Program-made: the position numbers and the translations under genes
Notes under the pieces: model-generated
Told to the model about the DNA's origin: nothing
The model's database searches: none
The model's input: only the letters and a program-made list of their open reading frames with translations
NCBI GenBank assembly: GCA_003001795.1
Contig: PVNI01000024.1
Span: 1 to 64,000, forward strand
Direction of reading: 5' to 3'
Length of the DNA stretch: 64,000 nt
DNA from: Actinomadura viridilutea
GTDB taxonomy: Bacteria; Actinomycetota; Actinomycetes; Streptosporangiales; Streptosporangiaceae
Shown here: one piece after another, positions 16,971 to 34,909 of the stretch
Layout of the letters: the number at the start of each line of letters is the position of its first letter
How positions within the stretch are numbered: the stretch's first letter is position 1

Positions 16971-17615
16971 TCGAGGCCCGCCGCTTCGCCGATCACCCTG
17001 CAAGCGACCCCCTGATGGGCAAGGAATCGCGCCTGAACGCAGGCACCGCCCGATCCCACTTCCGGGACCGCTGAAATGCCAAGCTGCTAAGCCAAATTAC
17101 CGACGTCCGCAACGACAACGCGGCCACCGACTATTGCGACCACCCTCGCCACCCGGACGAGTCCGCCGAGAATCCATGCCTAGGGCTATAACTGGCGACG
17201 AGGCCTACCGTCGGAGATGACGGCATGCGCTTTCGGTTGAATGCGGTCGACCTGAACGACCTCGTCGTCTTCGGTAAGCCGCCTTGTGGCCAGGATCACG
17301 CACTGCGATGAGCGGCAAGCCCTCGAGTCCACGCAGAGGGAGTCTTCGGCCGCTGTACTGGGCCTTTGTCCTCACCGTGCCGCGCACGTGACACGTGCGG
17401 CCTGCTGGATACGTGCCCTGAAAGGAGCGAATGAGGGGACTGTGACCTTTGAGTGATGACACCCTCAGTAACCTGTCCGGCATGCCCAGTGGCGGTCGGG
17501 TGGTCCGGGCGGTGCCCCCTCTGGTGACCGGCTGAGCCGGAAAGGCGGAGAGGCGCGAATGGGGACGGCCGGCTGCGGAACCCGCCGCCCACATTCCAGA
17601 TGAGAAGGGTTGGTA
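16971..17615. other. Intergenic, no supported gene
   Basis: About 640 bp without a credible coding region. Frames on both strands lack domains, have stop-rich alternatives and no ribosome binding sites. The last 40 bp include AGAAGG at 17603-17608, the binding site for the gene at 17616. No terminator hairpin for the GH5 gene was found by eye. Confidence 0.5.
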
Positions 17616-18971
17616 GTGCGAAGGCTGATGAGATTCGCTTCCGCGGTTCTGGCGGTGTCCCTGGCACTCGCCCCCGTGGCGTCGGCCCAAGCCTCTCCAC
17701 TGAGCGAGCGGCAGTGGTGGTTCGATTCTCGGGCCATCGAGGAGCTGGTCTGGCCGAAGACCAAGGGCGCCGGCGTCACCGTGGCCGTGATCGACAGCGG
17801 TGTGCAGGCCGACCTGCCCGACCTGCGTGACGCCGTGCTTCCCGGAACGGACATGACCGGGGGCGGATCGGACGGTCGCCGGGACACCCAGGACGGCGCG
17901 GGCGATTTCGGCCACGGCACCGCCATGGCCAGTCTGATCGCGTCACGCGGGACCAAGACCGGATTCACCGGGCTCGCGCCGCGCGCCAAGATCCTGCCGA
18001 TCGTCGCGCCCGGCGTCGGCTCCACGACCACGGCGCCCGCCATCCGCTACGCGGCCGATCACGGCGCGAAGGTCATCAGCATTTCGCAAGGGTCGCCCGC
18101 CGGGTCCTATCCCCATCAGTGTCCCCCGGCCGTTCTCGAAGCCGTCAAGCACGCGGCCGAAAAGGACGCGATCGTGGTCGCGGCGGCGGGCAACGAGGGC
18201 GACTCGACCAACGAGCCCTCGTATCCGGCCTCCTGCCCGGGGGGCGTGGCGGTCGGTGCCTTCGACAATCAGGGCCAGGCGTGGGAGCACACCCAGCGGC
18301 AGGATTATGTGACCCTGTCCGCACCTGGCGTCAACATCACGGCGTTGGGGCGTGATGGCCAGATTTGGGTCAACGGGGAGGGAACCGGCCATGCGACCGC
18401 CCTGGCGTCCGGGTGCTTCGCGTTGCTGCGCAGCGCCTTCCCCGACAAGTCGGCGCGGGAGATCGTGCGGCTGGCCGTCAACACCGCCAAGGACTTGGGG
18501 CCGAGCGGCAAGGACGACCAGTTCGGCTATGGTGCGCTGAGCCTGCGCAACGCCCTGTCGCAGTCGGTGCCCGCTGACGCGCCGAACCCCGTGTACGAAC
18601 GCCTGGACAAGGCTCTCGCGCAGAACGCGAACGGCTCCAGCACCACGTCCGCGCCGCAGGCGGCCACGGCCGCGAAGAAGTCCGGCGGCAACGTCATCTA
18701 CGGCGGCGCCGTCTTCCTCCTCGGCGTGGCGATGGTGATCGCCTACCTCTACATGCGGCACTACCACGGGCGTCGCACCCCGCTCCGGCCCCCGCGGCCG
18801 CCCAAGACGCCGACGCCGCCGCCCGGATACGGACCCCCTGGCTCCGGCCCCTCCCACAACGTTCCCCCGCCGCCTCCTGCCGGGGGCTACGCGCCTCCGC
18901 CTCCCTACGGGCATGGGCCGACGCCTGGACCGCAAGGCCCTCCGCCGGGTGGACATCCCCCACAGCGTTGA
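17616..18971 (+). CDS. Mycosin-like subtilase with substituted catalytic serine (pseudoprotease)
   Basis: 451 residues from GTG 17616 (AAGG 8 bp upstream). The order is signal peptide (1-26), S8 subtilase domain (about 45-320), Ala/Ser linker, one membrane helix (about 362-382) and a Pro/Gly-rich cytosolic tail (about 390-451). This is the layout of mycosins, the membrane-anchored proteases of type VII (ESX) secretion. Catalytic Asp60 (VIDSGV), His100 (GHGTAMA) and the AAAGNEGD oxyanion region are present. The serine block, normally G-T-S-x-A, reads GTGHATALASG with Gly258 (codon GGC, 18387-18389) in the serine position. Unless aligned wrongly it cannot be a serine protease. No ESX genes (EccB-E, WXG100) are nearby. 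Confidence 0.85.
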   Translation: MRRLMRFASAVLAVSLALAPVASAQASPLSERQWWFDSRAIEELVWPKTKGAGVTVAVIDSGVQADLPDLRDAVLPGTDMTGGGSDGRRDTQDGAGDFGHGTAMASLIASRGTKTGFTGLAPRAKILPIVAPGVGSTTTAPAIRYAADHGAKVISISQGSPAGSYPHQCPPAVLEAVKHAAEKDAIVVAAAGNEGDSTNEPSYPASCPGGVAVGAFDNQGQAWEHTQRQDYVTLSAPGVNITALGRDGQIWVNGEGTGHATALASGCFALLRSAFPDKSAREIVRLAVNTAKDLGPSGKDDQFGYGALSLRNALSQSVPADAPNPVYERLDKALAQNANGSSTTSAPQAATAAKKSGGNVIYGGAVFLLGVAMVIAYLYMRHYHGRRTPLRPPRPPKTPTPPPGYGPPGSGPSHNVPPPPPAGGYAPPPPYGHGPTPGPQGPPPGGHPPQR

Positions 18972-19147
18972 GCCTGCTGACCGTCGGCGGGGGGTGGCGC
19001 ACACCACGCCTCCAGGCGGGCAAGGTACGACCGTGTGATCCGCCCCGGACGCGTCGCGCATGGATCACTGTGACGCCTTGGACGGGGTAGCCGCCGACCT
19101 GGGCACCGCACCCCGATTCGGGACAGACAGCCCGGCGGCTGTGCGCT

Positions 19148-19177
19148 GCTGCGGCCCGTGTCTTCACGGGCCGCAGC
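19148..19177. terminator. Hairpin terminator between convergent genes
   Basis: GCTGCGGCCCGTG (19148-19160) and CACGGGCCGCAGC (19165-19177) form a perfect 13-bp stem with a TCTT loop. ACGTTTAA follows on the plus strand. It lies between the mycosin-like gene and the convergent gene ending at 19286; the 170 bp upstream of it carry no gene. Confidence 0.8.
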
Positions 19178-19285
19178 ACGTTTAAGGATGAGAGAAATGC
19201 CCCAGTAGGGCCCTGCGATCAGGCGACGGCCGTAGTGAGGGACGTCTCCAACGGCCGTGCGCGGCCCCACGTCCGGTTCCGGGGA

Positions 19286-20299
19286 CTATTGCGTCGACGT
19301 GGTCGCCCATGTCCGTTCGCCGACCGCTCCCGCTCTTCTGCGCCAGAGGCGATCGACCCGGACAGGGATCTTGAGGTCGACTTTGGCGGCCAGCAGGACC
19401 GCCGCGCCGGGCAGGCTCGCCACCAGTGCGAGCACGCCGTACACGACGGCGGAGGCCAAACCCTGCGCCGCCCCCAGACCGGCGGCGCCGAACGCCAGCG
19501 TCGCCACGCCCTCGCGCGGCCCCCAGCCGCCGACGCCCACCGGCAGCCCCATGGCCAGCAGCGCCAGGATCATCGGCGGGAGCAGCTGGGTGACCGGCGC
19601 GGTCGACCCGGCCGTCCGGGCGGCCACCACGAACAGGGCCAGGTAACCGGCCAGCGTCGCCGCCGACAGCAGCGCGACACCCGGCCACGCGCGCCGCGAC
19701 AGCAGTCCGATACGGGCGTCCTCCAGCGTGGTCGCCAGGCCGCGCAGCCAGCGGGACCGGCCCGCGGCCCAGCGCCGCCCGAGCGTGACGGCCAGGACCG
19801 GAACGGCCACCGCGGCCACCGCCATCACCGCCCCGGCGGCCAGGACCGTGCCGTGGAACCGCGCCGGGACCACCGCCGGACGCGTGAGCAGCACCGCCAT
19901 CCCCGCAAGGATGATCACGGCCTGTCCGGCGGCGCGTTCCAGCGCGACCGCGCGCACCCCGCGCCCCACGTCGCCCTCCTGCTTGCCATGCCGCACCGCC
20001 CGGTGCACGTCGCCGAGCATGCCCGCGGGCAGCACCGCGTTCAGGAACTGCGAAAGGTAGTAGTCGCGGACGGCTTCGCCCAGCGGCAGCCGCAGCCCGA
20101 GCCGCCGCGCTATCAGGCACCAGCGCCCCGCGCACAGCACCGTGGTGGCCAGGCCGATTCCCAGCGCCGCCAGCACCGCGTCGACGTCGATCATCCGGAG
20201 TCCGGACACGAACGCGCCGGTGCCCACCTGCCACACCAGCACGCCGAGGATGGCCGGCGCGGCGAGCGTCCGGAACCGCCCCATCTGGAATCGCCTCAT
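19286..20299 (-). CDS. Lysylphosphatidylglycerol-synthase-TM (UPF0104) family membrane protein
   Basis: 337 residues with about 8 membrane helices. It has the features of the flippase-like domain of MprF and UPF0104 proteins: a polar block RDYYLSQFLNAVLPAGMLGD (about residues 79-98) and GLPVGVGGWGPREG (about 253-266). In MprF this domain moves modified lipids across the membrane. No aminoacyl-transferase domain is attached. It starts 3 bp after the methyltransferase stop, so it is the last gene of a leftward operon. It probably exports or flips the lipid-linked product of the cluster. Confidence 0.8.
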   Translation of the reverse strand: MRRFQMGRFRTLAAPAILGVLVWQVGTGAFVSGLRMIDVDAVLAALGIGLATTVLCAGRWCLIARRLGLRLPLGEAVRDYYLSQFLNAVLPAGMLGDVHRAVRHGKQEGDVGRGVRAVALERAAGQAVIILAGMAVLLTRPAVVPARFHGTVLAAGAVMAVAAVAVPVLAVTLGRRWAAGRSRWLRGLATTLEDARIGLLSRRAWPGVALLSAATLAGYLALFVVAARTAGSTAPVTQLLPPMILALLAMGLPVGVGGWGPREGVATLAFGAAGLGAAQGLASAVVYGVLALVASLPGAAVLLAAKVDLKIPVRVDRLWRRRAGAVGERTWATTSTQ

Positions 20300-28068: not shown

Positions 28069-29562
28069 TCAGCCGGTGCGGCGGCGGGGGAGGGGCAACC
28101 TGCGCAGCAGCGGCCACAGCACGATCAGCAAGATGATCACGTAGACGGTCACCGCGAACGGCGTGCTGACCAGGCCGCTGAGGCTGCCGTCGCTGATCTG
28201 CAGGGCGCGCCGCAGCTGCTGCTCGGCGTTCGGGCCGAGGATCACGCCGATGACGGCGGGCAGCACCGGCAGCCCGTAACGGCGCATGCCGAACCCGACC
28301 AGCCCGATGACCAACAGGATCACCAGGTCGATGACCTCGCCGCCGACCGCGTACGCGCCGACGGCGGCGAAGAACAGGATGCCCGCGTACAGGTACTGGC
28401 GCGGGATGCGCAGCAGCCTGGCCCACAGCGGCGCCAGCGGCAGGTTCAGCGCGAGCAGCAGCACCATGCCGATGAACAGCGAGGCGATCAGGCCCCATAC
28501 CAGGTCGGGTTCGTGTTGGAACAGCAGCGGGCCCGGCTGGATGCCGTACTGCTGGAACGCCGCCAGCATGACCGCGGCGACCGCGGTGGTCGGCAGGCCC
28601 AGCGTCAGCATGGTGCCGAGCGTCCCGGCGGCCGAGGCCGACGCCGCCGACTCCGGTCCGGCCACGCCCTCGATCGCGCCGCGGCCCCATTCGTCGGGGT
28701 GCTTGGACAGGCGCTTCTCGGTGACGTAGGACAGGAACGTCGGGATCTCCGCGCCGCCCGCCGGGACGGCGCCGAACGGGAAGCCGATCAGCGGGCCGCG
28801 CAGCCACGGCTTCCAGGTGCGGCGCAGGTCGGCGCGGCCCAGCCAGGGGCGGCCCACCGGGATCGCCTCGGCGGTGGTGCGGCGCAGGTGCGCGGCGACC
28901 CACAGCGCCTCGCCGATCGCGAACAGGCCGACCGCGACGACGACCACGTCGATGCCGTCGGCGAGCTGCAGCGACCCGAAGGTCAGGCGCTGCTGCCCGG
29001 TCATCTGGTCCAGGCCGACCAGGCCGATGGCGAGGCCGATCAGCAGGGACGCCAGACCGCGGATGCGGGACGCGCCCAGCACGGACGTCACCGCGATGAA
29101 CGCCAGGACCATGATGGCGAAGAAGTCGGGTGCGCCGAAGTCCACGGCCAGGTCGGCGATGGTCGGCGCCAGGGCGACCAGCAGCAGGGTGCCGATCATG
29201 CCGCCGGTGAAGTGGCCGATGGCCGCGGCGGCGAGCGCCTGCGCGCCGCGTCCCGACGTGGCCATGGGATGGCCTTCCATCGCCGCGACCACGGCGGCGC
29301 TCTCGCCCGGCGTGTTCAGCAGGATCGACGTGGTGGACCCGCCGAACATCGCCCCGTAGTAGATCCCCGCGAACATGATGAACGCGCCGGTCGGGTCCAG
29401 GCCGTAGGTGACCGGGAGCAGCAGCGCGACGGCCATCGCCGGGCCGATGCCGGGCAGCACGCCGATCGCGGTGCCGAGCAGCACCCCGATCGCCGCCCAC
29501 AGCAGGCTCATCGGGGTGAGGGCGGTGCCGAATCCGTCCAGCAGGGAGCCGAAGGCGTCCAT
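28069..29562 (-). CDS. tctA: Tripartite tricarboxylate transporter, large membrane subunit TctA
   Basis: 497 residues with about 11-12 membrane helices. TctA signatures are clear: [20 protein letters not shown] near residue 25, [20 protein letters not shown], and [18 protein letters not shown] with the matching [20 protein letters not shown]. It forms the sodium-driven channel of TTT uptake systems for citrate-like or other carboxylic acids. ATG 29562 is used because GGGAG precedes it. The start is reached from tctB through a 16-bp tandem repeat that contains two 4-codon mini-ORFs. Confidence 0.93.
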
Positions 29563-29608
29563 GTCACAGCACTCCCATGTCACAGCGCTCCCATGTCACA
29601 GCGCTCCC
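29561..29608 (-). repeat. 16-bp tandem repeat (x3) at the tctB-tctA junction, with mini-ORFs
   Basis: Three units (29561-29576, 29577-29592, 29593-29608) read on the minus strand GGGAGCGCTGTGACAT, the tctA-proximal one with GTG instead of GCG. Each unit carries a GGGAG ribosome-binding element, a TGA stop and an ATG. The tctB end (Met-Gly-Ala-Leu-stop) is repeated as two free ORFs, ATG at 29594 to stop 29580 (MGAL) and ATG at 29578 to stop 29564 (MGVL), before tctA starts at 29562. Confidence 0.9.
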
Positions 29609-30132
29609 ATGAGCGGCCCGCCGGGCAGCGGCACCCCCAGCAGGTTGTTGAAGACGACGTAGGTGACCAGCGACAGCGTGGCGGCGATCAGCGGGTCCCG
29701 GTCGAACCGGCGGCTGCCGAGCGCGTACGCGGCGCCCCAGAACAGCAGCGCCCCGGCGGCGGGGAACCCGAGCGGTTCGATGAGCACCGCCGTGCCGAGG
29801 AACACCCCGACCAGCATCAGCACGGTGCGCCAGTCGGCGGGTTCGGACAGGTCGACGTCCTCGCCCTCCTCTGCCGCGCCGCGGCCGCCGCGCAGCACGT
29901 CCACGGCCAGCAGCGCCGCCACGGCCAGCAGGCCGGCGCCGACCGCGATCGGCACGGTGCGCGGGCCCACCGGACCGCGCTGTGCGATCTCGACGTCCAT
30001 GGTCAGCGCGTCGGTGAGGACCAGGACGCCGATCGCGAGGAGGACGGCGCTGACGCCGAGTTCGGAGGTGAACCTCCGGTCGCGCGAGGAGCGGGCGGGC
30101 CGCTGATCGCGCCGCGAGAGCCGAGCACTCAT
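29596..30132 (-). CDS. tctB: Tripartite tricarboxylate transporter, small membrane subunit TctB
   Basis: 178 residues with four membrane helices (about 26-44, 60-82, 103-122 and 143-165) and an acidic loop near residue 90. The helix-3/4 block FGFPAAGALLFWGAAYALGS-like pattern (LGFPAAGALLFWG) is typical of TctB. The N-terminus is strongly basic and cytoplasmic. It precedes tctA with overlapping repeat-borne signals, and 105 bp separate it from tctC1 upstream. It stabilises the TctA channel and docks the substrate-binding protein. Confidence 0.88.
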   Translation of the reverse strand: MSARLSRRDQRPARSSRDRRFTSELGVSAVLLAIGVLVLTDALTMDVEIAQRGPVGPRTVPIAVGAGLLAVAALLAVDVLRGGRGAAEEGEDVDLSEPADWRTVLMLVGVFLGTAVLIEPLGFPAAGALLFWGAAYALGSRRFDRDPLIAATLSLVTYVVFNNLLGVPLPGGPLMGAL

Positions 30133-30237
30133 GTCACGTCCTGCCGTTCGTTCCGACGTCGATCCGGGGCCGGTGCCGATCGTCCGAGGCCGGCGCGGCG
30201 ATCAGGCCGCGCGGGTCGGGGCGCTTGCGGCCGGCGG

Positions 30238-31287
30238 TCACAGTCCCAGCTCCTTCAGCACCGAGGCCACGCGCCGGTCCTGCTCGGCGAGGAAACGGCC
30301 GAAGTCCTCGCCGGTGAGGAAGGCGTCGTCCCAGCCGTTCCGGCGCATCGACTCCCGCCACTGCCGCGAGTCGTGCAGCTTCTGGAACAGCCGGACGAGC
30401 TTGCCGCGCTCGGCGTCCGACAGTCCGGGCGGGGCGACGACGCCGCGCCAGTTGGTGAAGTCGACGTCGATCCCGGCCTCCCGCAGGGTGGGCGCGTCCA
30501 GCCCCGCGACCCGCTTCAGGCCGGTGACGGCCAGCAGCCGCAGCTCGCCGGCGCGGATCTGGTCCAGGTATTCGCCGACGCCGGAGACGCCGAAGGCGAC
30601 CTTCCTGCCGAGGATCGAGGCGAGCAGCTCGCCGCCGCCGTCGAAGGGGATGTAGTTGACCCGCTTGGGCGCGATGCCCGAGGCCTGCGCCATGAGCATC
30701 GTGGCCAGGTGGTCGGGGCCGCCGGGGGACGACCCGCCGCCCACCGGGAGCTTGCCGGGGTCCCGCCGCCACGCCTCGACCAGCTCGCCGATCGTCCGGT
30801 ACGGGGAGTCCTTGGCGACCACCACGACGTCCTGCTCTTCGGTGAGCCGGGCGATCGGCGTGGTGTCGGCGAGGGTCTTGGGGCTGCGGTTGGACCGCGC
30901 CGCGCCCACCACGCCCAGTCCCATGGACATCGCGAGCTTGCCGTTGCCGTGTTCGCTCACCAGGCGCGTCAGGCCGACCGTGCCGCCGGCGCCGGGCAGG
31001 TTGAACACCTCGATGTTGTGGGTGAGTCCGGCGTCCTCGGCGTCCTTGGCGGCGGTGCGGGCGGTGATGTCGTATCCGCCGCCGGGCGTGTTGGGGACCA
31101 TGAAGCGCAGGCCGGGGATGCGCGTGCCGGTGTCGGCGCCGTCGCCGGTGGTCAACAGCGGCGGCCCCGCGAGCACGAGCACCACGGCTCCGAGCAGCGC
31201 GAGGACGGTGCGCAGGCGCACGTTCGCCACCACCTGTTCGGTACGTCGATGAGCGTCACGGGGGCTGAGGTGTGAGGTGGCCCACAT
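30238..31287 (-). CDS. tctC: TctC/Bug-type extracytoplasmic substrate-binding protein, copy 1
   Basis: Up to 349 residues from ATG 31287; starts at the tandem GTG codons near residues 19-20 would place the signal peptide (VRLRTVLALLGAVVLVLAGP) at the N-terminus and may be correct. Bug-family marks: MVPNTPGGGYDITART, EVFNLPGAGGTVGL, GGGSSPGGPDHL and FTNWRGVVAPPG. It captures a carboxylate outside the membrane and delivers it to TctAB. A tandem 9-bp motif at 31334-31351 lies upstream, indicating its own regulated promoter. Copy 2 lies directly upstream. Confidence 0.9.
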   Translation of the reverse strand: MWATSHLSPRDAHRRTEQVVANVRLRTVLALLGAVVLVLAGPPLLTTGDGADTGTRIPGLRFMVPNTPGGGYDITARTAAKDAEDAGLTHNIEVFNLPGAGGTVGLTRLVSEHGNGKLAMSMGLGVVGAARSNRSPKTLADTTPIARLTEEQDVVVVAKDSPYRTIGELVEAWRRDPGKLPVGGGSSPGGPDHLATMLMAQASGIAPKRVNYIPFDGGGELLASILGRKVAFGVSGVGEYLDQIRAGELRLLAVTGLKRVAGLDAPTLREAGIDVDFTNWRGVVAPPGLSDAERGKLVRLFQKLHDSRQWRESMRRNGWDDAFLTGEDFGRFLAEQDRRVASVLKELGL

Positions 31288-31333
31288 GGTGCCCGTGCGT
31301 CGACGTCCTGTCTCGATTCCGGAACCAACGAAG

Positions 31334-31351
31334 GTTGTGTTCGTTGTGTTC
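31334..31351. promoter_or_regulatory. Tandem 9-bp motif upstream of tctC copy 1 (candidate response-regulator site)
   Basis: GTTGTGTTC occurs twice head-to-tail (31334-31342 and 31343-31351). The surrounding 24 bp match 21 of 24 bases at 32480-32504, in the promoter region of the sensor kinase and second tctC. A CitB-type regulator is encoded next door, so this is its likely target. Confidence 0.6.
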
Positions 31352-31396
31352 GCGAGGTTTGCCGGTAAACGCGCCGTTTTGAGAACGGAGCACCGG

Positions 31397-32395
31397 TCAG
31401 GACGTGCCGAGGTCCGCCAGGAACCGCGCGACGGCCTTGCTCTGGTCGTCCAGGAAGGTCGCGTACTCCTCGCCCGTGGCGAACGCGTCGATCCAGCCGT
31501 GCCTGGCGAGCTCGGCCCTCCACTGCCGGGTGCGGCGCATCGCGGTCAGCGCCTCGATCCAGGTGCGCCGTTCGTCGGCGCTGATGCCGGGCGGGGCGAC
31601 GATGCCGCGCCAGTTGGTGAAGACCAGGTCGATGCCCTGGGATTTCAGGGTCGGGACGTCGCCGAGCGGGGCGGCGGGGCGGTCGGAGGTCACCGCCAGC
31701 ACTCGCAGCTGCCCCGCCCGGATCTGCCCGAGCAGTTCGCCGAAGCCGCTGGCCCCAAAGGTCAGCCGGCCGTCCAGCAGGACCGGCAGCAGCTCACCGC
31801 CGCCCCCGTCGTAGGACGTGTAGCGCACCTCCCGGGGGTCGATGCCGACGGCCTCGGCGAGCCGCATGGACATCAGGTGGTCGGGCCCGCCGGGGGACGA
31901 TCCGCCGCCGATTCTCACCCGCGCCGGGTCCTTCTTCCACGCGGTGATCAGCTCGCCGATCGTCCGGAAGGGAGAGTCGCTCGGCACCACGACGGCACCG
32001 GGCTCGGCCACGAGCCGGGCGATCGGCGTGGTCTGCGCGACGCTCACCCGTCCGCCCGCCACCGACGAGGCGCCCAGCACGCCGAGGCCCATCTGCATGG
32101 CCAGCGCGCCGTTGCCGCGTTCGTTGACGAGGCGCTGCAGGCCGACCACGCCGCCCGCGCCCGGCAGGTTGAACACCTGCACGTCGGAGGCGATCCCGGT
32201 GTCACTCAGGACCTTGGCCACGGTGCGGGCGGTGGTGTCGTATCCCCCGCCGGGAATGTTGGGCACCATGATCCGCAGCTCCGGCCGGGACGGCGCGCCC
32301 GCCCCCGGCCACGGGCCGCAGGCGGCCGCGGCCGCCGGCGTCAGCGCCGCCACGACGGCGAGAAGGGCGCGCACGAGAGCCGCCGCAGTGCCCAT
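31397..32395 (-). CDS. tctC: TctC/Bug-type substrate-binding protein, copy 2
   Basis: 332 residues from ATG 32395, with GAGGGG upstream; the longer open frame is not used. The signal peptide (about residues 7-26) ends in an alanine run and Cys26, which could be a lipobox, though weak. Bug-family marks are the same as in copy 1: MVPNIPGGGYDTTARTVAKV, VFNLPGAGGVVGLQRLV, GGGSSPGGPDHL and FTNWRGIVAPPG. The two copies are clearly homologous but diverged. The gene is divergent from the sensor kinase. Two receptors sharing one TctAB pair would widen the substrate range. Confidence 0.9.
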   Translation of the reverse strand: MGTAAALVRALLAVVAALTPAAAAACGPWPGAGAPSRPELRIMVPNIPGGGYDTTARTVAKVLSDTGIASDVQVFNLPGAGGVVGLQRLVNERGNGALAMQMGLGVLGASSVAGGRVSVAQTTPIARLVAEPGAVVVPSDSPFRTIGELITAWKKDPARVRIGGGSSPGGPDHLMSMRLAEAVGIDPREVRYTSYDGGGGELLPVLLDGRLTFGASGFGELLGQIRAGQLRVLAVTSDRPAAPLGDVPTLKSQGIDLVFTNWRGIVAPPGISADERRTWIEALTAMRRTRQWRAELARHGWIDAFATGEEYATFLDDQSKAVARFLADLGTS

Positions 32396-32468
32396 CACAC
32401 CCCTCTCTTCCGCCCGCGGCCCCGCGGGCGCGATGATTGTGCGGCTCGGCACCTGAACCGCCCGGACC

Positions 32469-34157
32469 GTGAAGAGACTGAAGGTTGGGTTCATTGTGGT
32501 CGCCCCGTTCCGCCGCCATAGCCTCGCGGGCGAGATGCTGGTGCTCCAGCTCGCCATCATCGTGGTGGTGCTGCTGGCGGTCGCCGCGGTCTCGCTGGCC
32601 CAGTCCGAGGCCACCTTCAACCGGGTGGAGGGACGCCGGGTCGTCGCGCTGGCCGAGCAGCTGGCCGCCAATCCGCTGGTGCGCAGCCGCCTGGAGCGGC
32701 CCGGCCCGCAGGAGTCCCTCGCCCCGCTCGTCCAGGCCACCCGGACCCAGGCGCGCGTCTCCTCGGTCACCGTGGCGGACGCGCACGGGCGGATCGTCAG
32801 CGCGACCGACCCCACGTTGATCGGCAGCCGCATGCCGCTGGGGGCGGGCGCCGCCGAGGGCCGGGGCTGGTCCGGCGAGCTGACCCTGGGCGGCACCCGC
32901 GAGCTGGTCGCGCAGGTGCCGGTGCTCGGCGAGTCGGGGGACGCCCTGGGCCGCCAGCTGGGCGTGGTCATGATCGGCGAGGCGTCCCCGACGGTGTGGC
33001 AGCGGCTCGGCGGCGCGTCCTCGTACCTGCTGGTCTACCTCGGCATCGCCAGCGGCCTGGGGCTGGCCGGGTCCTGGCTGTTGGCACGGCGGGTCAAGCG
33101 GCAGACCCTCGGCCTGGAACCGCGGGAGATCACCGGGCTGGCCGAGTACCGCGAGGCGATCCTGTACGGGATCGCCGAGGGCGTGGTCGCCCTCGACCCG
33201 CAGCACCGGATCACCCTGGTGAACGAGGTGGGCCGGCGGCTGCTCGACCTGCCCGCCGACTGCGTCGGCCAGAGCCTGGCGGACCTGGGCATCGACGGAC
33301 GCCTCCGGGACGTGCTCACCGGCGTCCCGGACGAGGCGGGGGAGCGGCGCGACGAGGTGGTCATCCGCCGGGGCAGGGTGCTGGTGATGAACCGGATGAC
33401 CGTGGAGAAGGACGGCCGTGTGCTCGGCTCGGTCACCACCCTGCGCGACCGCACCGAGCTGGCCCGCCTGGAACGCGAGCTCGGCTCGTTCCGCAGCTCC
33501 TCGGAGCTGCTGCGCGCCCAGGCCCACGAGTTCGCCAACCAGCTGCACACCATCTCCGGGCTCATCCAGATCGGGGAGCAGGACGAGGTGGTGCGCTACA
33601 TCCAGGCGCTCAAGCAGCACCGCCAGGACCTGGACGTCACGCTCAGCCGACGAGTGCGGGACGGCGCCGTGGCCGCCCTGCTGATGGCCAAGTCGTCCCA
33701 GGCCGCCGAACGCCACGTCGCGCTGCGCATCTCCGAGCGCACCGCCCTGGACCGGCTGGCCGCCGAGGACGCCGCGGACGTGGCGACCGTGGTCGGCAAC
33801 CTCGTGGACAACGCCGTGGACGCCGCCGCGTCCGCCGCCGACCCGGCTTCGGGGACCGCGGACGGCGCCTGGGTGGAGGTGGAGTTGCGGCAGGATGCCT
33901 CCAGCGTGGAGATCGTGGTGCGCGACTCCGGTCCCGGGGTGGCGCCCGAGCTGGCCCAGGAGGTGTTCTCTCACGGGTTCACGACCAAGGCCGCGCAGGG
34001 CGGCGAGCGCGGCATCGGCCTGGCCCTCACCCGCCTGGTGTGCGAGCGGCACGGCGGTGAGATCTCGGTGGCCAACACGCCCGACGGCGCCGTGTTCACC
34101 GCCCGCATGACCGTCCGCGCCCTGGCCGACGAGACGACGGAAGGAGCCCGCCGATGA
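32469..34157 (+). CDS. CitA/DcuS-type sensor histidine kinase
   Basis: 562 residues from GTG 32469; GTG 32496 is an alternative, since the motif at 32484-32501 overlaps the first codons. Order: membrane helix (about 24-45), extracytoplasmic PAS-like sensor (about 46-170), second helix (about 185-207), cytoplasmic PAS (about 218-305) and a DHp helix with the phospho-acceptor His353 in RAQAHEFANQLHTISGLIQI. The ATPase domain has NLVDNAVDAA (N box), DSGPGVAPE and GERGIGLALTR. CitA-family kinases sense carboxylates directly, which fits the adjacent TTT genes. It overlaps the response regulator by 4 bp. Confidence 0.93.
   Translation: MKRLKVGFIVVAPFRRHSLAGEMLVLQLAIIVVVLLAVAAVSLAQSEATFNRVEGRRVVALAEQLAANPLVRSRLERPGPQESLAPLVQATRTQARVSSVTVADAHGRIVSATDPTLIGSRMPLGAGAAEGRGWSGELTLGGTRELVAQVPVLGESGDALGRQLGVVMIGEASPTVWQRLGGASSYLLVYLGIASGLGLAGSWLLARRVKRQTLGLEPREITGLAEYREAILYGIAEGVVALDPQHRITLVNEVGRRLLDLPADCVGQSLADLGIDGRLRDVLTGVPDEAGERRDEVVIRRGRVLVMNRMTVEKDGRVLGSVTTLRDRTELARLERELGSFRSSSELLRAQAHEFANQLHTISGLIQIGEQDEVVRYIQALKQHRQDLDVTLSRRVRDGAVAALLMAKSSQAAERHVALRISERTALDRLAAEDAADVATVVGNLVDNAVDAAASAADPASGTADGAWVEVELRQDASSVEIVVRDSGPGVAPELAQEVFSHGFTTKAAQGGERGIGLALTRLVCERHGGEISVANTPDGAVFTARMTVRALADETTEGARR
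32484..32501. promoter_or_regulatory. Second copy of the tandem motif, at the kinase start
   Basis: GTTGGGTTC followed by ATTGTGGTC, matching the tandem GTTGTGTTC pair at 31334-31351 with three differences. It lies between tctC copy 2 and the kinase body, overlapping the annotated first codons of the kinase. Confidence 0.5.
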
Positions 34158-34909
34158 GCGAGCCGACCGAGCCGGCCGAGCCGGCCGCCCCGGCCGACCG
34201 GACCGGCGCGACCCAGCGGCCCCAGGCGAGCGACCGGATCGACGTCCTGGTCGTCGAGGACGACTTCATGGTGGCCCGGGTGCACCGCGCGTTCGTCGAG
34301 CGCGTCCCGTCCTTCCGGGTGGCGGGCGCGGCCGGCACCGGCGGGCAGGCGATCGAGGCGGTCGACCGGCTGCGCCCCGACCTGGTGCTGCTCGACCTGT
34401 ACCTGCCGGACATGTTCGGCCTGGACGTCATCCCCCGGCTGCGCGCGGCCGGGCACGACTGCGACGTGATGGTGATCAGCGCCGCGCGGGAGGCGGAGGC
34501 GCTGCGCGGCGCCGTCCGCCACGGCGTCGTCGACTACCTGCTGAAGCCGTTCGAGTTCGAGGACCTGCGGTCCCGCCTGGAACGCTACGCCGACCGCCGC
34601 CGGCGGCTCCTGACGACGGTGGTGCGCGGGCAGGCGGACGTGGACCGGGTCCTGGCCGGCGCCGCCGCGCCCCCGCCGCGCGCCGCGCTGCCCAAAGGCA
34701 TGAGCGTGGAGACCGCCGACCTGATCGAGCAGGCCCTGCGGGAGGCCGACGGCAGCCTGTCGGCCAGCGAGTGCGCCGCCCTGACCGGCGTCTCCCGGGT
34801 CAGCGCCCGCCGCTACCTGGAGCACTTCACCGCCGTCGGCCGCGCCGAGGTGTCCCTGCGGTACGGCGCCGCGGGCCGTCCCGAACGCCGCTACACCTGG
34901 CGCCTTTGA
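34154..34909 (+). CDS. CitB/DcuR-type response regulator
   Basis: 251 residues. The receiver domain (about 30-145) has the acidic pair in VVEDDFMV, phospho-acceptor Asp81 in VLLDLYLPD and the Lys of YLLKPFEF. The C-terminal CitB HTH (about 185-245) contains LSASECAALTGVSRVSARRY. Its N-terminus is an acidic Pro/Glu-rich tail of about 28 residues, longer than usual. It overlaps the kinase stop (ATGA) and surely pairs with it. The likely targets are the tctC promoters with the tandem GTTGTGTTC motif. Confidence 0.93.
   Translation: MSEPTEPAEPAAPADRTGATQRPQASDRIDVLVVEDDFMVARVHRAFVERVPSFRVAGAAGTGGQAIEAVDRLRPDLVLLDLYLPDMFGLDVIPRLRAAGHDCDVMVISAAREAEALRGAVRHGVVDYLLKPFEFEDLRSRLERYADRRRRLLTTVVRGQADVDRVLAGAAAPPPRAALPKGMSVETADLIEQALREADGSLSASECAALTGVSRVSARRYLEHFTAVGRAEVSLRYGAAGRPERRYTWRL

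Follow-up and report, generated by a model that had tools for sequence, protein, structure and literature searches.

What is a mycosin-like protein that carries glycine where its protease family carries the catalytic serine, and that is encoded away from any type VII secretion (ESX) genes? The question is raised by a gene on the plus strand of the window, that is, the whole stretch of 64,000 nucleotides from Actinomadura viridilutea that we analyzed. An earlier note, written from the sequence, had described the product as an orphan mycosin-like protein that could serve as a pseudoprotease scaffold. Mycobacteria require MycP1 and MycP5 for secretion and for a stable complex; catalytic-serine mutants of both (Ser-to-Ala versions) still support secretion, and their deletions destabilize the complex (PMC5082899). 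Structurally, MycP5 trimers cap the EccB5 chamber, or dome (PMC8131196). The features on which our analysis rests are as follows.

17616..18971, plus strand: orphan mycosin-like pseudoprotease, 451 amino acids, GTG start (open reading frame, Pfam/NCBIfam matches, tree)
17616..17699, plus strand: predicted N-terminal signal peptide, about residues 1-28 (RRLMR, hydrophobic stretch, end ...PVASAQA)
17700..17765, plus strand: mycosin N-terminal extension, containing Arg39 (alignment to mycosins)
17766..18533, plus strand: subtilase (Peptidase_S8) domain with D60, H100 and N193 (Pfam, alignment)
codon 17793-17795, plus strand: D60, motif AVIDSG (alignment)
codon 17913-17915, plus strand: H100, motif FGHGTAM (alignment)
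codon 18192-18194, plus strand: oxyanion Asn193, motif AAAGNEG (alignment)
18387..18389, plus strand: Gly258 at the catalytic serine position, motif GTGHATALASG, codon GGC (alignment)
18702..18767, plus strand: predicted C-terminal membrane helix, residues 363-384 (sequence and AlphaFold2 model)
18774..18968, plus strand: Pro/Gly-rich cytoplasmic tail (sequence)
16985..19371, no strand: segment without DNA similarity to genome G027, the nearest relative by neighbor genes (DNA comparison)

The reading frame was confirmed from its GTG start (17616) to its stop (18971), and a purine-rich, GAGAAGG-type ribosome site was found a few bases upstream of it. The protein begins with VRRL.RF, as does the product of a sister gene in another genome of the genus (G087, L078:9672-11108). 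The signal peptide, subtilase domain, single membrane helix and Pro-rich tail that the earlier note had read as a mycosin architecture were borne out by the sequence, by Pfam/NCBIfam matches and by an AlphaFold2 model, in which residues 2-17 of the signal-peptide region form a low-confidence helix; a mycosin N-terminal extension was also identified. MycP1, MycP3 and MycP5 share this architecture, but in the natural MycPs the Asp-His-Ser triad is complete and the genes lie together with those of their ESX. Peptidase_S8 (PF00082) matched at 152 bits, and the best NCBIfam model was TIGR03921 T7SS_mycosin, at 250.2 bits against a curated cut-off of 278.75. Two ESX-linked mycosins of the genus, both in complete ESX loci, also score under this cut-off (249.4 and 256.1 bits), so the missed cut-off says nothing against mycosin identity. 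A Foldseek search agreed with the S8 assignment, returning MycP1 (4kb5, E 8e-20) as the top PDB match, with MycP3 and subtilisins close behind; the model itself has a mean pLDDT of 64, with many core blocks at 70-95, and was built from an input alignment of just seven sequences.

Asp60 and His100 are intact, as the earlier note had stated, and its reading of a GGC glycine codon in place of the catalytic serine was upheld by both sequence and alignment. The structure prediction that it had proposed as a check placed Gly258 where helix 257-274 begins, which is the site of the subtilase serine, and alignment to solved subtilases agrees. A replacement serine in the active site was ruled out by alignment and model, the next serine of this helix, S265, being two turns away. 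Judged by its sequence, the protein is a non-peptidase homologue of the S8 family: lacking the serine nucleophile, it would be unable to cleave peptides efficiently.

We then assessed how rare this substitution is among homologues collected across 65 genomes belonging to the genus, with further ones taken from named contigs mostly titled Actinomadura; most of the homologues were read. Of 108 rows in the resulting alignment, 3 are the orphan gene itself; the other relatives, about 100, nearly all belong to the same genus. The Asp, His, Asn and Ser residues are present in 101 of the 108 rows, and glycine at the catalytic serine position is unique to the orphan mycosin among the approximately 100 aligned homologues. 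A search for orthologues with the same glycine, likewise suggested earlier, thus came back empty in this set; the sister, all other members of its clade and the other distinct relatives keep serine. An apparent second loss, to alanine in L199 (G035:C142:4206-5736), proved to be an alignment shift. That homologue retains Asp, His and Ser, although its serine block reads EAS instead of GTS, and Gly (AGPGGG) replaces its oxyanion Asn. Elsewhere among the homologues, L169 (G074:C6:501140-507996) comprises four tandem mycosin-like genes within 7 kb. Our literature search found no description of a naturally serine-less mycosin.

Nearly all the relatives encode the serine as AGC or AGT, so one A-to-G transition (AGC to GGC) yields the orphan's glycine codon; the sister gene has AGC, in the block GTSHATALAAG, which shares with the orphan the histidine after the serine position. 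With a single deciding base in a single assembly, and a finding selected for its oddness, we considered whether the true codon is AGC, which would make the product a normal orphan mycosin with its catalytic site intact. Such base errors are uncommon, the assembly reaches 99.99% completeness in 62 contigs, and nothing is unusual about the codons on either side. We regard a sequencing or assembly error as very improbable. The glycine at the catalytic serine position is a real and well-supported sequence feature, and a single-genome case.

In a FastTree phylogeny of 96 homologues, the orphan mycosin has the G087 mycosin as its sister (support 1.0) inside a clade of ESX-linked mycosins. The two proteins are 62% identical over their full length and share the same architecture, but the G087 protein has the catalytic serine and sits within a complete ESX locus, in the order EccD, EccB, two WXG100 proteins, a PPE-like protein and then the mycosin, with a divergent EccC. 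This placement inside the mycosin tree, together with the TIGR03921 match, identifies the orphan protein on sequence grounds as a true mycosin by descent. EccB is nearby in 14/14 ESX-type loci of the clade (L078-L091, reading about 15 to 20 kb of context). Co-occurrence with ESX, another check that had been suggested, holds for these 14 loci but fails in the orphan's own genome, where that ESX type is absent. Locally, the orphan status described earlier stands: no EccB, EccC, EccD or other ESX gene or remnant lies in the window. The name mycosin thus fits by descent and architecture and does not fit by triad and ESX linkage, and we prefer "mycosin-derived pseudoprotease".

ESX machinery is nevertheless present elsewhere in the genome, in which we counted one recognizable EccB, two EccD and two strong EccC proteins. 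Contig C9 carries a complete ESX locus with EccC, EccD, EccB, WXG100 proteins, a PPE-like protein and a mycosin (L073:11697-13097). The latter shares the orphan's architecture and is 49% identical to it, but has an intact triad, lies within the C9 ESX locus and falls in another mycosin clade; the locus is accordingly of a different subtype, and its EccB shares about 41-44% identity with those that accompany the orphan's clade. Beyond EccC, the C9 ESX region has a second mycosin-like gene with an intact triad (L072:6860-8080), and several relatives (L079, L083-L086) likewise have two mycosins in one ESX region. The second EccC/EccD pair belongs to a divergent cluster on contig C16 with WXG100-like proteins (L225:9107-12520, L226:4302-8432), in which neither a mycosin nor an EccB was detected. 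The EccD of this cluster adjoins a membrane protein that has a TNT (tuberculosis necrotizing toxin-like) domain at its end. The orphan's partner, which had been left open, is thus not wholly so, since these two systems exist in the genome; on the other hand, the C9 locus has its own intact mycosin and is of the other subtype.

The neighbors of the orphan gene are genes for a TetR regulator, a GH5-type hydrolase, a flippase-like LPG_synthase_TM protein and a methyltransferase, none of which is shared with the sister's locus. Farther along the window (28069-34909), an sCache/PAS histidine kinase (32469-34157) and a response regulator stand beside genes that, by their sequence alone, resemble those of a tripartite tricarboxylate transporter (28069-31287). 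The distance from ESX genes is consistent with a role outside type VII secretion, such as a membrane-tethered pseudoprotease for binding or sensing, or a decoy acting against the active C9 mycosin. A precedent exists in CspC of Clostridioides difficile, a natural subtilase with glycine (G485) at the catalytic serine site that is a functional pseudoprotease turned sensor (PMC6636752). Unlike the orphan mycosin, CspC is a soluble spore protein that has also lost the histidine, has kept its prodomain and has an unrelated role. No neighboring gene points to such a function, nor does any shared neighbor at the sister's locus, and we consider it improbable.

We compared the surroundings of the gene with G027, in which the proteins encoded by the neighboring genes are 81-82% identical (83-87% in DNA). 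DNA similarity breaks off at 16984, where the GH5 gene ends, and picks up again at 19372, in the flippase-like gene; the two matching parts are on separate G027 contigs. There the gene after GH5 encodes an aminotransferase, and the orphan gene is missing from this side. Contig C5 continues for about 130 bases beyond the flippase gene, leaving the GH5 and flippase sides unbridged. The orphan gene thus sits at a synteny break relative to G027, reflecting an insertion or a rearrangement. Searches by tblastn and blastn with the ESX genes of relatives found no ESX fragments flanking the gene, and no RNA gene or tRNA insertion site was found beside it. A plasmid source was rejected, the plasmid matches being merely distant subtilases at <40% identity. 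No close mycosin and no EccB of any kind were found in G027.

These observations are what would be expected of a recently disabled relic, either a lone arrival or the leftover of a lost ESX locus, that has no partner and no function, lost its serine by chance through a single transition, and has not had time to decay elsewhere. We examined constraint in a set of 25 distinct mycosins. Among 74 core columns that are invariant in the other 24, the orphan departs at 2: the catalytic Ser-to-Gly and a Trp-to-Arg at residue 39 in the N-terminal extension. At 90%-conserved positions it shows slightly more departures than its sister (13/119 versus 8/117), which leans toward the relic. Against it, the core is otherwise intact, the reading frame is open through the tail, and relative-rate tests against the G087 sister detected no acceleration (9 outgroups, p 0.50-1.0). 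Polarized changes on the orphan's branch number 25/17/57 at codon positions 1/2/3, and this concentration at third positions indicates that most of the branch evolved under purifying selection. Together, conservation, relative rates and codon positions rule out advanced pseudogene decay and a long period of drift. The same tests are compatible with a recent loss of the serine, and the selection that they detect may predate the orphaning of the gene or the loss itself. A recent relic fits almost as well as a scaffold function, and we see it as a serious possibility, though one that falls somewhat short of even.

The orphan mycosin is thus probably an inactive enzyme, either retained for a structural role or retired only recently. 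Our preferred reading, held tentatively and at just under an even chance, is that it is a displaced mycosin that has become a pseudoprotease and that, if functional, most likely acts as a non-proteolytic ESX subunit. The protein would be exported and folded as a subtilase, with its C-terminal helix in the membrane and its domain outside the cell. If functional, it would most likely bind EccB and cap or stabilize an ESX membrane complex, by analogy with the non-proteolytic role of mycosins; such a scaffold function is plausible given the mycobacterial precedents (PMC5082899, PMC8131196). Gly258 alongside the retained D60, H100 and N193, and the presence of ESX machinery to bind, speak for the pseudoprotease reading; that the glycine is seen in one genome and hinges on one base speaks against it. 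One candidate partner is the C9 ESX, which the orphan might join as an extra or mixed subunit. Docking there may fail, however, because C9 has its own intact mycosin and an EccB so divergent from those of the orphan's clade. The other candidate is the C16 cluster, where no mycosin was found, although the missing EccB counts against it. A stronger version, in which the protein has parted for good from its own ESX locus and given up protease activity to act specifically as a non-proteolytic cap or regulator on a heterologous ESX complex, seems unlikely.

In mycobacteria, mycosin catalysis is dispensable for ESX secretion while the protein itself is essential. Unless other strains have the same glycine, the orphan mycosin is a single-genome curiosity, and if it is a relic, it merely shows that displaced mycosins can lose catalysis. 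If it were a dedicated cap, it would be a naturally occurring equivalent of the Ser-to-Ala mycosins made in the laboratory. If the glycine proves conserved and the protein functional, evolution would have shown independently that mycosins can act as scaffolds alone, and structure and regulation could be separated without engineering.
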